From assembly GCA_902632145.1 (NCBI GenBank), contig CACPBH010000003.1, forward strand, positions 1-52,033: 52,033 nt of DNA, in the 5' to 3' direction. The position numbers were made by a program, and so were the translations under genes. Source of the stretch: an uncultured Pelagibacteraceae bacterium. Lineage in GTDB: Bacteria; Pseudomonadota; Alphaproteobacteria; Pelagibacterales; Pelagibacteraceae. The notes beneath the pieces are model-generated. The model made no database searches. It was not told the DNA's origin and saw only the letters and a program-made list of their open reading frames with translations. Of this stretch, positions 37,954 to 46,824 are shown piece by piece (positions within the stretch are counted from its first letter, which is position 1; every line of letters begins with the position of its first letter).

Positions 37954-38325
37954 ATGGCAGATTTAAATAAAATTATCGATGAACTTTCAACTTTAACAGT
38001 TGTTGAGGCGGCAGAACTTTCAAAACAGTTAGAGGAAAAATGGGGCGTAACAGCAGCTGCACCAGTTGCAGCAGCACCAGCCGGAGGAGCAGCGGCACCA
38101 GCAGGCGAAGAAAAATCTGAGTTTTCTCTTTTCTTAGCATCTGCAGGAGATAAAAAAATTAATGTTATCAAAGAAGTTAGAGCAATAACAGGCTTAGGTT
38201 TAAAAGAAGCAAAAGATTTAGTTGAAGCAGCACCAAAAGAGATTAAAGGTGGTGTAGCTAAAAAAGATGCTGAAGAGTTTAAGAAAAAGCTTGAAGCAGC
38301 TGGGGCTAAAATAGAATTAAAGTAA
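37954..38325 (+). CDS. rplL: 50S ribosomal protein L7/L12
   Basis: bL12 stalk protein that recruits translational GTPases (123 residues). N-terminal dimerisation helices ([20 protein letters not shown]), an Ala/Pro/Gly-rich hinge (residues 34-50), and the C-terminal globular domain with [20 protein letters not shown] and [14 protein letters not shown]. Last gene before the rplL-rpoB hairpin, which may lower rpoB transcription relative to this very abundant protein. Confidence 0.98.
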
Positions 38326-38342
38326 ACAAGATTTAAAGTAAG

Positions 38343-38379
38343 ATTTCATTGCAACCATATATTGCGATGAAATTTTTTT
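38343..38379 (+). terminator. Strong hairpin plus U-tract between rplL and rpoB (attenuator candidate)
   Basis: ATTTCATTGCAA at 38343-38354 pairs with TTGCGATGAAAT at 38362-38373 (12 pairs, one T-G), loop CCATATA, followed at once by a run of T to 38379. This has the shape of an intrinsic terminator. Because rpoB starts at 38387 and has no other obvious promoter in the 58-base gap, it is more likely a partial terminator that sets the ratio of ribosomal proteins to RNA polymerase. In E. coli an attenuator and an RNase III site lie at the same position. Confidence 0.72.
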
Positions 38380-38386
38380 ATATTTG

Positions 38387-41300
38387 ATGCAATTATCTTT
38401 TACGCAAAAGAAAAATATTAGAAAGAATTTTGGCAAATTAGTCGAAGGTTTATCTATTCCAAATCTTATAGAAGTCCAAAAAAACTCATACAATGAATTT
38501 TTAGAGTCAAAATCTCTAAAAGATCAACTTAGCGAGCTTTCAAAAGGTATTGATAAAGTTTTTAAGAGTATATTTCCTATAGAAGATGGTAATGACAAAG
38601 CAACTCTTGAATATATTTCTTACAAATTAGAAAAGCCAAAATTTGATGTTATAGAATGCAAGCAAAGAAGTTTGTCTTATTCAGCAGCATTAAAAGCAAA
38701 TTTAAGACTAGTTGTATACGATATTGACACAGAAAATAATACTAAGCAAATTCTCTCAGCCAAAGAACAAGAAGTATTTATAGGTGATCTACCTCTCATG
38801 ACACCTAGTGCAACATTTATAACCAATGGTGTTGAGAGAGTTGTGGTAAACCAAATGCACAGAAGTCCCGGTGTATTTTTTGACCACGACAAAGGCAAAA
38901 CACACGCGAGTGGAAAACTTTTATTTAATTGTAGAATAATTCCTGGAAGAGGATCATGGTTAGATTTCGAATTTGACCCAAAAGATATTCTATATTTCAG
39001 AATAGATAGAAAGAAAAAATTACCGATTACTACAATTCTTTACGCTTTAGGTTATACAAAAGAAAAAATTATTGAAACATTTTATACAAAAGATAAATAC
39101 ACATACAACAGTGACGCAAAAAATTGGACAACAAATTTTGATCCAGATAATTATAAAAGACCAATTAAACTTTCATTCGATTTAGTGGATGCGAAAACTA
39201 ATAAAAAAGTTTTGTCAAAAGGTGAAAAACTAAATTTTATAATTGCAAAAAAACTACAAGAAAAAGGTTTAAATTCAATTTCTGTAACTAATAATCAAAT
39301 TATAGGGAAATATGTTGCTTCTGATATTAAAAATAAAAATAATGAAAATTTGATAAGTGCTGGTTTTGATATCACTGAAGAGCAACTAGAAAATATTCTC
39401 AAAAATGAGGGAGATAAGAATTTTAATTTAGTAAATATTGATCCAATTAATAAAGGACCATACATTTTAGAAACACTTAAAATCGATAAAAATTCAAATA
39501 AGGCCGAAGCTTTAAATGATATTTATAAAGTTTTAAGGCCAGGAGAAGCTCCATCTATAGAGATTGCTCAAGAGATTTTCAATAATCTATACTTTAAAAA
39601 AGAAAGATATGACCTTTCAGAAGTAGGGAGAGTTAAATTAAATTCAAAACTAAATTTGAACACAAGTCTAAAAAAAACAATTTTGGAAACTTCAGATGTA
39701 ATAGAAATCATTAAATTCATGCTTGATTTACGGGATGGAAAAGGAGAAGTAGATGATATAGATCACCTTGGTAATAGACGTGTTAGATCCGTAGGTGAAC
39801 TGGTTGAAAATCAGTTTCGGATTGGTCTGTTAAGAATGGAGAGAACTGTTAAAGAAAAAATGTCTACTTTCTTAGAAATAGAGTCCGCGATGCCCCAAGA
39901 CCTTATAAACGCTAAACCAATTACAACATCGTTGAAAGATTTCTTTGCAACTTCTCAACTTTCTCAATTTATGGATCAAACAAATCCACTATCGGAAATA
40001 ACTCATAAGAGAAGGGTATCAGCATTAGGACCGGGTGGTTTGACAAGAGAACGGGCTGGATTTGAGGTAAGGGATGTACACCCAACGCATTATGGAAGAA
40101 TTTGCCCTATAGAAACTCCTGAAGGTCCTAATATTGGATTAATAAACAGTTTAGCTACTTATTGTAGAGTAAATAAATTTGGGTATATAGAAAGTCCATA
40201 TAAAAAAGTTGTTAACGGCAAAGTTACCTCAGAGATAAAATATTTATCAGCTATTGAGGAAGAAAAGTATACCATTGCTCAAGCTAATTCTATTTTAAAT
40301 AGCGATGGTTCGTTTACAGAAGATTTAATTGCTTGCAGAAAAAATTTAAACTTTGAACTATCCACTAAAGAAAGCATTGACTACATTGATGTGTCTCCAA
40401 AACAATTAGTTTCTGTAGCAGCTGCTCTAATTCCTTTTTTAGAAAATGATGACGCTAACAGAGCTTTAATGGGTTCAAATATGATGAGGCAAGCTGTTCC
40501 TTTATTAAAACCAGAGGCTCCATTAGTAGGAACAGGAATAGAGTCAGACGTAGCTTTAGACTCAGGAGTTACAATAGTGGCAAAAAGAAACGGAGTCGTA
40601 GATAAAATAGATGGTAAGAGGATCGTGGTAAAAGCTACCGAAGTTACAGATTTGTCTCAATCAGCAGTGGATATTTACAACCTATCTAAATTTCAGAGAT
40701 CTAATCAAAATACATGTATAAATCAAAAACCATTGGTAAAGGTTGGAGATAAGATAAAAAAAGGAGATATAATTGCTGATGGACCAGCAACAAAACTTGG
40801 TGAACTTGCCCTAGGAAAAAACGTTACGGTGGCATTTATGCCATGGCAGGGATATAATTTTGAGGACTCCATATTGATATCTGAAAGATGCGTTACGGAT
40901 GATGTTTTTACGTCCGTTCATATCGAAGAGTATGAGTCAATGGCAAGAGATACTAAATTAGGAGCAGAGGAGATTACTAGAGACATACCTAATGTGAGTG
41001 AGGAAAGTTTAAGAAATTTAGATGAGTCAGGCATTGTATATGTAGGCGCAGAGGTAAAACCAGGTGATATATTAGTTGGTAAAGTTACACCTAAAAGCGA
41101 AACATCATCAAGTCCAGAAGAAAAACTATTGAGATCTATATTTGGTGAAAAAGCAACGGATGTAAGAGACTCGTCATTAAAATTGCCCTCTGGAAGCACA
41201 GGTGTCGTAATTGATGTAAGAGTATTTAATAGACATGGAATAGAAAAAGATGAGAGATCTATAGCTATTGAAAGAGCAGAGATTGAGTCTGTTCAAGAGG

Positions 41301-42481
41301 ATAAAAAAGTTGAAGAAGAAATTTTAAATAGAAATATTAAATTAAGAGCAATAGATCTTTTAAATGGTCAGAGTATTAATAAACAATTTAAAGAATTAAA
41401 ACCAGAGACTACATTAAATAAAAATGATCTAGAGAATTTAAACTTGAAAGATTTTTGGAAAATTTCATTACAAAAACAAGAAATAAACAATAATCTTGAG
41501 AAACTTAAAAATCAATACGAAAATGCAGCAGAGGACATTAAAATAAGATTTGAAGATAAGGTAACTAAAATTCAACAAGGTGATGACTTGCTACCCACTG
41601 TAATGAAAGTTGTGAAAGTTTTTGTTGCCGTTAAAAGAAGATTGATGCCGGGTGATAAAATGGCTGGAAGACATGGGAATAAAGGAGTTGTAAGTAAAAT
41701 AGTGCCAGTCGAAGACATGCCTTATATGGAAAGCGGAAAACCTGTTGATATAGTTTTAAATCCCTTAGGAGTGCCAAGTAGAATGAATGTTGGCCAAATT
41801 CTAGAAACGCATTTGGGTTGGTCATGTTCAGAGCTTGGAGATCAAATTAAAATTTATTTAAAAAATTTTGAGAAAGAAATTGATAAATTAAAAGGGAAAT
41901 TAAAAGATATTTATGGTGCTAACTATTTCAACCAAGTTATCTCAAAATTATCTACAAAAGAGATTGCTGAATTAGTTCAAAATCTCTCTAATGGTATACC
42001 AATAGCAACACCAGTTTTTGATGGTGCTAGCACAAAAGATATAAATGAAATGCTAAATTTAGCGAAACTTCCTGGTACTGGACAAACAAATTTGTGGAAC
42101 GGACAAACAGGAGAAAGATTTGACAGACCAGTAACAGTCGGAATTATTTACATGTTAAAATTAAATCACTTAGTCGAAGATAAAATACATGCAAGATCAA
42201 CCGGTCCTTACAGTCTAGTCACACAACAACCACTTGGTGGTAAAGCACAACTTGGTGGACAAAGGTTTGGAGAAATGGAGGTGTGGGCATTAGAGGCTTA
42301 TGGAGCTTCTTATACACTTCAAGAAATTTTAACAGTTAAATCTGATGATGTTGCAGGTAGAACAAAAGTCTATGAAACTATTGTAAAAGGTAATAATAAT
42401 TTTGAGTCTGGTGTGCCAGAGTCATTTAACGTCCTAGTCAAAGAAATTAGAGCGTTAGGCCTAAATATTGAACTTAACTAA
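38387..42481 (+). CDS. rpoB: DNA-directed RNA polymerase, beta subunit
   Basis: Beta subunit of core RNA polymerase (1364 residues from ATG 38387; a TTG lies one codon earlier). The rifampicin-pocket stretch [20 protein letters not shown], with [16 protein letters not shown], keeps the Asp, His and Ser found in sensitive enzymes. Later landmarks are [21 protein letters not shown] and [15 protein letters not shown]. The C-terminus includes [18 protein letters not shown]. No visible ribosome-binding site; the hairpin ends 7 bases upstream of the ATG. Two bases separate it from rpoC. Confidence 0.98.
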
Positions 42482-46677: not shown

Positions 46678-46695
46678 ATAAAGATTAGTAAAATA

Positions 46696-46723
46696 TTGAC
46701 TTTTACAAATTCGGTGTTAGTTT
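46696..46723 (+). promoter_or_regulatory. Probable promoter of the rpsL-rpsG-fusA-S10 cluster
   Basis: TTGACT at 46696-46701 with TAGTTT at 46718-46723, a 16-base spacer. The -35 is good and the -10 weak. A small hairpin, GGTAA/TTACC with loop AAC (46793-46805), follows in the leader, about 20 bases before the rpsL ATG, and could be a binding site for a regulatory ribosomal protein. The rest of this 147-base gap has no ORF. Confidence 0.4.
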
Positions 46724-46824
46724 ACGGCACATTTTGAATGTTAGAAGTAAGGTAGATTATAACTTTAAACACTAACAACAATTCTTAAAAAAGGTAAAAC
46801 TTACCTATAACTTCAAAATTTATT

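Follow-up and report, generated by a model that had tools for sequence, protein, structure and literature searches.

In Escherichia coli, the spacer between rplL and rpoB contains an attenuator according to the introduction of a research paper (PMC4670729), and the same spacer is listed among the substrates of RNase III (PMC2777011). Stem-loops located 3' of selected genes are described as setting stoichiometry in operons with selective processing and stabilization (PMC8219983). Internal termination in the ribosomal-protein/polymerase operons of an archaeon is reported to matter for growth (PMC10450193), which indicates that the junction of ribosomal-protein and polymerase genes can carry such control. 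A survey of RNA candidates in P. ubique used spacers over 100 bp and gained few candidates when a lower threshold was explored (PMC2704228); for that reason, the rplL–rpoB spacer, at 61 nt, is absent from its table.

Growth depends centrally on the ratio of ribosomes to RNA polymerase, for which streamlined cells have few regulators. The rplL–rpoB spacer of SAR11 bacteria (Pelagibacterales) contains a hairpin retained by most members of an order from which nearly all other spacer DNA has disappeared, which makes the junction a spot where SAR11 may set this ratio. Among the matches listed for the open-access literature (titles and abstracts), there is no earlier report of this hairpin.

The rplL–rpoB junction of a SAR11 genome

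The window, i.e., the whole stretch of 52,033 nucleotides that was analyzed, is part of a SAR11 genome of 560 kb (55% complete). The locus has the gene order tuf, tRNA-Trp, secE, nusG, rplK, rplA, rplJ, rplL, and rpoB, followed by a long frame that is taken as rpoC because of its position. The spacers from nusG to the presumed rpoC frame measure at most 15 nt, with the sole exception of that between rplL and rpoB, most of which is occupied by the hairpin (Table 1). Judging by gene order, nusG-rplKAJL-rpoBC would be transcribed as one operon, and the hairpin lies inside it, as had been claimed in an earlier reading of the same DNA (the sequence-only reading). The promoter-like matches listed, beyond which there are 13 weaker sites, include none in the rplL–rpoB spacer; since rpoBC is also essential, readthrough into rpoBC would be expected.

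Table 1. Features of the rplL–rpoB junction (positions in the window)
Feature	Position	Strand	Basis or remark
rplL (ribosomal protein L7/L12), upstream gene	37954..38325	+	Pfam PF00542 and PF16320; ORF
rplL–rpoB spacer, 61 nt	38326..38386	+	
5' arm of hairpin	38340..38354 (12-pair core 38343–38354; A/T foot 38340–38342)	+	Pairing; covariation in 35 clade spacers including that of the window
Hairpin loop, 7 nt	38355..38361	+	Sequence and length vary among relatives
3' arm of hairpin	38362..38376 (12-pair core 38362–38373)	+	Pairing; covariation
Seven-T run, overlaps stem foot	38373..38379	+	Feature mainly of the window's clade
A/T-rich single strand, 7 nt, before rpoB ATG; candidate RNase E site	38380..38386	+	
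rpoB, downstream gene	38387..42481	+	Pfam; ATG start at 38387; no Shine-Dalgarno sequence

The hairpin comprises 12 contiguous pairs, one of which is G-U, and reaches 15 pairs when the A/T foot is included (38340–38376). Folding of positions 38326–38400 yielded −16.2 kcal/mol (z = −3.68), a value reached by 1 of 200 shuffles, and folding of the segment cut to the hairpin (38340–38379) yielded −14.1 kcal/mol (z = −6.65), reached by 0 of 200. The 12-pair stem, the 7-base loop, and the T-run ending 7 bases before the rpoB ATG had all been located correctly in the sequence-only reading. A chance origin of the hairpin is ruled out by the folding shuffles together with the spacers of relatives.

Three scans of the window for terminator-like sites returned 22 sites (13, 7, and 2), which corresponds to chance level (shuffled means of 9.0, 8.5, and 5.6). 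The claim that the rplL–rpoB site is the sole strong terminator shape in the window nevertheless holds: it stands alone with its 15 pairs, as every other listed site has at most 7, and it is the strongest hairpin among the 11 co-directional spacers of 20–150 nt in the window (−14.0 versus −7.6 kcal/mol for the next, which is located in a tRNA-bearing spacer).

An assignment to a repeated element was rejected, because the remaining top-ranking hairpins in the lists for the window and genome G021, down to −6.2 kcal/mol, are terminators or parts of tRNAs. A repeat search at default settings did not have the rplL–rpoB hairpin among its results, probably because the one G-U pair breaks the exact seed. 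The same hairpin census, which covered the window and stretches of three genomes, shows a few GC-rich hairpins without a long T-run in G062 and G047. Near positions 823541–823585 of G062:C1, a co-directional spacer contains a GC-rich 11-pair hairpin that has no T-run and ends 5 nt ahead of a start codon.

Conservation of the hairpin across Pelagibacterales

The comparison included 122 loci of Pelagibacterales, among them the window's own copy (L002), collected in four sets (30 + 40 + 40 + 12) from a chosen part of 208 matching genomes, with extra weight on the clades g1, g9, and f2. After removal of a stretch without rplL (L011) and four repeats (L034, L062, L047, and L050), the set consisted of 117 distinct complete spacers, which represent core g1 (the clade of the window; 35 spacers), deep g1 (12), g6 and similar (32), g5/7/8 (8), f2 (25), and g9 (5). 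The named loci (L032–L070 and L077) received their clade labels on the basis of similarity; the title of L070 gives no more than “Alpha proteobacterium”. A script was used to set the rpoB starts in f2, L153, and L158, and that of L158 is one base off an ATG. Within its first 200 residues, the rpoB match of L158 (genome G190) also contains a single in-frame TAA, which may be due to the frame or the assembly.

A hairpin that ranks in the best 1% of shuffles is present in 94 of the 117 spacers, and one in the best 5% is present in 108. At the 1% level, the hairpin was found in core g1 (34/35), deep g1 (10/12), g6 and similar (27/32), g5/7/8 (6/8), and f2 (17/25), where the hairpins are the weaker ones. 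Only 13 of 94 other co-directional spacers of 35–80 nt, taken from the window and three genome stretches, pass the same test, and these are mostly terminators. The median stem has 15 pairs in the window's clade and 9–11 pairs in the other hairpin-bearing clades. Close relatives of the window retain the stem, the lack of which had been named in the sequence-only reading as evidence against its own interpretation.

The g9 lineage has lost the hairpin, or nearly so (0/5 at the 1% level), which indicates that it is not indispensable. The g9 loci (L127–L130 and L038) either lack the hairpin (L127) or have only short, weak stems of about 7 pairs or fewer, and represent a natural deletion experiment.

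The distance between the rplL stop codon and the 5' foot of the stem is almost constant, with medians of 15 nt in core g1, 18 nt in g6 and in g5/7/8, and 19 nt in deep g1 and f2. The distance from the 3' foot to the rpoB ATG varies, with medians of 9–10 nt in the f1 clades that keep the hairpin and 22 nt in f2, whose starts are script-set. A constant stop-to-stem distance combined with a varying stem-to-ATG distance indicates that the hairpin goes with rplL and not with the start of rpoB, although the constancy could also reflect slow indel evolution rather than function. Judging from ribosome footprints, the foot of the hairpin sits about where a ribosome positioned at the rplL stop codon would end. 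In f2 (L132–L151 and L159–L163), where the gap between hairpin and rpoB start is about 12 nt longer than in f1, this gap contains a GG in 24 of 25 spacers.

Covariation of the stem in the message strand

Base pairs were counted on plain MAFFT alignments of core g1 (n = 35), g6 (A2; n = 29, without L036, L051, and L066), and f2 (A3; n = 25), with deep g1, g9, and g5/7/8 outside the alignments. Compensatory changes in relatives, which the sequence-only reading had proposed as a check, are indeed present. The proportion of pairs with two-sided changes is 8/13 in core g1, 7/11 in g6, and 10/12 in f2, and 97.4%, 91.8%, and 84.6% of the cells, respectively, are paired; the structure for each alignment was taken from one of its own sequences, which tilts these counts toward that structure. 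When the partners are slid by 1–3 columns, the paired fraction falls to 62% or less. The covariation scores and paired percentages were matched in none of 500 shuffles of any of the three alignments. The number of pairs with two-sided change was equaled in 4 (A2) and 20 (A3) of 500 shuffles, and the counts of pair types are unremarkable (equaled in 74 and 285 of 500, respectively).

Among the cells that depart from Watson-Crick pairing, G-U combinations outnumber A-C combinations in core g1 (47:2), g6 (24:5), and f2 (22:5). Because the other strand, if it acted as RNA, would give the reverse, this bias points to selection on the RNA of the + strand, which has the sense of the mRNA. Together, the compensatory changes and the G-U exceptions show that selection acts on an RNA structure of the message strand. 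A palindrome acting at the DNA level or a protein site is ruled out by the excess of G-U over A-C exceptions and by stem sequences that differ between clades.

Termination, processing, and translation as possible functions

The sequence-only reading had described the hairpin as terminator-like, which is appropriate for one feature and mainly for one clade. In the window, a U-run (seven Ts at the foot) directly follows the stem, and six or more consecutive Ts are present in the last 20 nt before rpoB in 25 of the 35 spacers of core g1. This is far above the background at that place (9 of 384 genes of G021) and favors some termination in the clade. A looser T-rich tail (5 Ts among the 8 positions following a stem that was trimmed in favor of termination) is found in all 35. 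Outside the clade, the hairpin is kept while long T-runs are rare (2/82; deep g1, 1/12; g6, 1/32; all others, 0/38) and looser tails occur in 19 of 82 spacers, which means that the long T-run was added in the clade of the window and does not belong to the design shared across the order. With a terminator score, core g1 is borderline (median −4.4; 12/35 above 0), and the other sets have medians of −28 to −87 (1/82 above 0). By the same score, 13 co-directional spacers of related genomes (G021, 5; G062, 7; G047, 1) contain clear terminators, with values of +16 to +45 and 4–7 G-C pairs. These are ordinary GC-rich terminators; the hairpin in the window, which has 3 G-C pairs and −14 kcal/mol, lacks their strong G+C-rich stem and is outside that class. 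In E. coli K-12, the measure applied to the other spacers returns two hairpins, one of 8 pairs without a T-run 17 nt after rplL and one of 11 pairs with a T5 tail 39 nt after it; the second is consistent with the attenuator that has been placed in this spacer (PMC4670729). A partial intrinsic terminator (attenuator), at which a fraction of the polymerases would stop in the T-run and thereby lower the transcription of rpoBC, could be seen as the counterpart of that hairpin and agrees with the T-runs of core g1. Such a function is a possible but not a probable explanation of the element, given the low scores, the few G-C pairs, and the scarcity of T-runs outside the clade, which extends to other Alphaproteobacteria (T-rich tail in 3 of 56 spacers).

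The conserved part of the element consists of the stem and its tie to rplL, which favors a stabilizing or processing hairpin. As the best explanation, in which our confidence falls slightly short of even, we consider the hairpin a streamlined element of the rplL 3' end that would favor the ribosomal-protein part of the message, mainly via processing or stability of the mRNA, and to which the window's clade would have added weak termination. The hairpin would fold once a ribosome reaches the rplL stop codon about 15 nt upstream. Cleavage, probably by RNase E, would occur in the short A/T-rich stretch before rpoB, and the hairpin would then block 3'-to-5' exonucleases. The upstream part that bears rplL would outlive the rpoBC part, yielding more L7/L12 than polymerase. 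In the window's clade, the U-run gained at the foot of the stem may stop a minority of polymerases. A conserved stem-loop 3' of the favored gene that does not need a U-run, as expected of a stabilizer, is what the SAR11 spacers contain. Several observations count against this explanation: AU-rich stems with medians of 9–15 pairs are modest barriers to exonucleases, the T-runs of core g1 favor some termination in that clade, looser T-rich tails also occur outside it, and g9 has lost the hairpin.

Genes encoding RNase E/G, RNase III, and Rho were found in all 11 genomes searched and that of PNPase in 10, so that none of the candidate mechanisms is excluded by the absence of an enzyme. RNase III might also process the transcript at the hairpin and thereby separate the rplL message from that of rpoB, as suggested by the listed substrate in E. 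coli and the median of 15 pairs in the window's clade, but RNase III usually needs stems longer than the 9–11 pairs that are typical of the other clades keeping the hairpin, which makes this function unlikely. The role in setting the ratio of ribosomal proteins to RNA polymerase that had been proposed in the sequence-only reading is plausible, considering that a conserved, covarying element is located at the junction where E. coli separates the two expressions.

The lack of a Shine-Dalgarno sequence before rpoB had also been noted correctly, but it is ordinary in the window and in related genomes. Matches of at least 5 letters to the Shine-Dalgarno consensus precede 4 of 51 genes in the window, compared with 2 of 51 in a control stretch. 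The corresponding numbers for five-letter matches are 35/384 genes in G021, 39/412 in G062, and 41/325 in G047 (control stretch: 13, 13, and 9, respectively), and a pattern of the 16S tail had no match in the loci searched. The accompanying suggestion that the stem could affect the translation of rpoB is weakened by the distances, as the families differ in that to the start codon but not in that to the rplL stop; it stays as a weak rival. The hairpin would then limit or position ribosomes at a start without a Shine-Dalgarno sequence, or bridge a Shine-Dalgarno-like tract upstream of the stem to the ATG. The proximity of stem and start in the f1 clades agrees with such a function, as do the GG of f2 and four-letter Shine-Dalgarno-like matches upstream of the stem, which are present in 24/35 spacers of core g1 (6.0 expected by shuffling), 9/12 of deep g1 (1.8), 13/32 of g6 (7.0), and 1/25 of f2 (0.4). 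However, these matches have only four letters and are not independent, five-letter upstream matches occur in 1 of 35 spacers of the window's clade, and the window itself has no GG upstream of the stem. The bridged pattern is compatible with a binding site but thin, and translational control by the hairpin is very unlikely.

With their differences in U-run, in the length of the stem, and in the distance to rpoB, and with one loss among them, the natural variants of the hairpin lend themselves to distinguishing termination from effects on mRNA stability.

Comparison with other Alphaproteobacteria and known RNA elements

The outgroup comprised 68 loci of other Alphaproteobacteria (L078 and L079 are titled only Proteobacteria). 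Twelve were dropped for lack of one of the two genes or of a spacer of 20–700 nt, and the 56 usable loci have spacers of 119–615 nt. In a set not thinned for relatedness (L071–L111 and L221–L248), 31 of the 56 spacers carry, in the 80 nt that follow rplL, a hairpin that reaches 1 in 100 or better, and in 40 of 56, likewise not thinned, the hairpin ranking best over the entire spacer begins no more than 60 nt from the rplL stop. Among two AT-rich outgroups, the hairpin is present in L102 and absent from L238. Class-wide occurrence in Alphaproteobacteria is tentative. It is a doubtful idea that the hairpin belongs to a so far undescribed cis RNA element of Alphaproteobacteria, located about 10–40 nt after the rplL stop, that would work without a U-run, that the ribosome terminating on L7/L12 would either free or block, and that would set the ratio of ribosomal proteins to RNA polymerase. 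SAR11 would possess the minimal form, which one clade would have turned into a weak terminator. If this is true, SAR11 keeps the element as nearly the sole content of the spacer.

No known Rfam family matches in the window at the gathering threshold or around the hairpin, where the covariance models RF03074 and RF01709 yielded nothing at E values up to 5. Rhodo-rpoB RNA (RF03074) is also a cis RNA between rplL and rpoB in Alphaproteobacteria and matches three Rhodobacterales of the outgroup (L090, L097, and L109), but it has 93 positions and two stems and ends about 30 nt before rpoB. Lacto-rpoB RNA (RF01709) is likewise named for rpoB (PMC2864571) but belongs to Lactobacillales. The SAR11 rpsL motif and other RNA candidates of P. 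ubique are structured RNAs from the same gene region of SAR11, but the motif is located between rpoC and rpsL (PMC2704228). The place in the window where that motif would be expected is the 147-nt spacer before rpsL (46678–46824), which has no Rfam match at the gathering threshold.

The stem-loops that act as stabilizers in selectively processed operons resemble the SAR11 hairpin in being intergenic and 3' of the more needed gene, and they are kept apart from terminators in the paper describing them (PMC8219983). By contrast, the SAR11 hairpin is AU-rich and weaker, and the abstract of that paper does not list SAR11 among its organisms. The E. coli attenuator and RNase III site share with SAR11 the same junction, a hairpin close to rplL, and the expected effect of fewer rpoBC than rplL transcripts. 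They differ in that the E. coli spacer has 319 nt and GC-rich stems, whereas that of SAR11 has 61 nt and a single AU-rich stem, with a T-run that is not order-wide. A hairpin between rplL and rpoB is already known from E. coli; what SAR11 adds is a minimal, AU-rich form that has been kept through most of the order without the need of a U-run.
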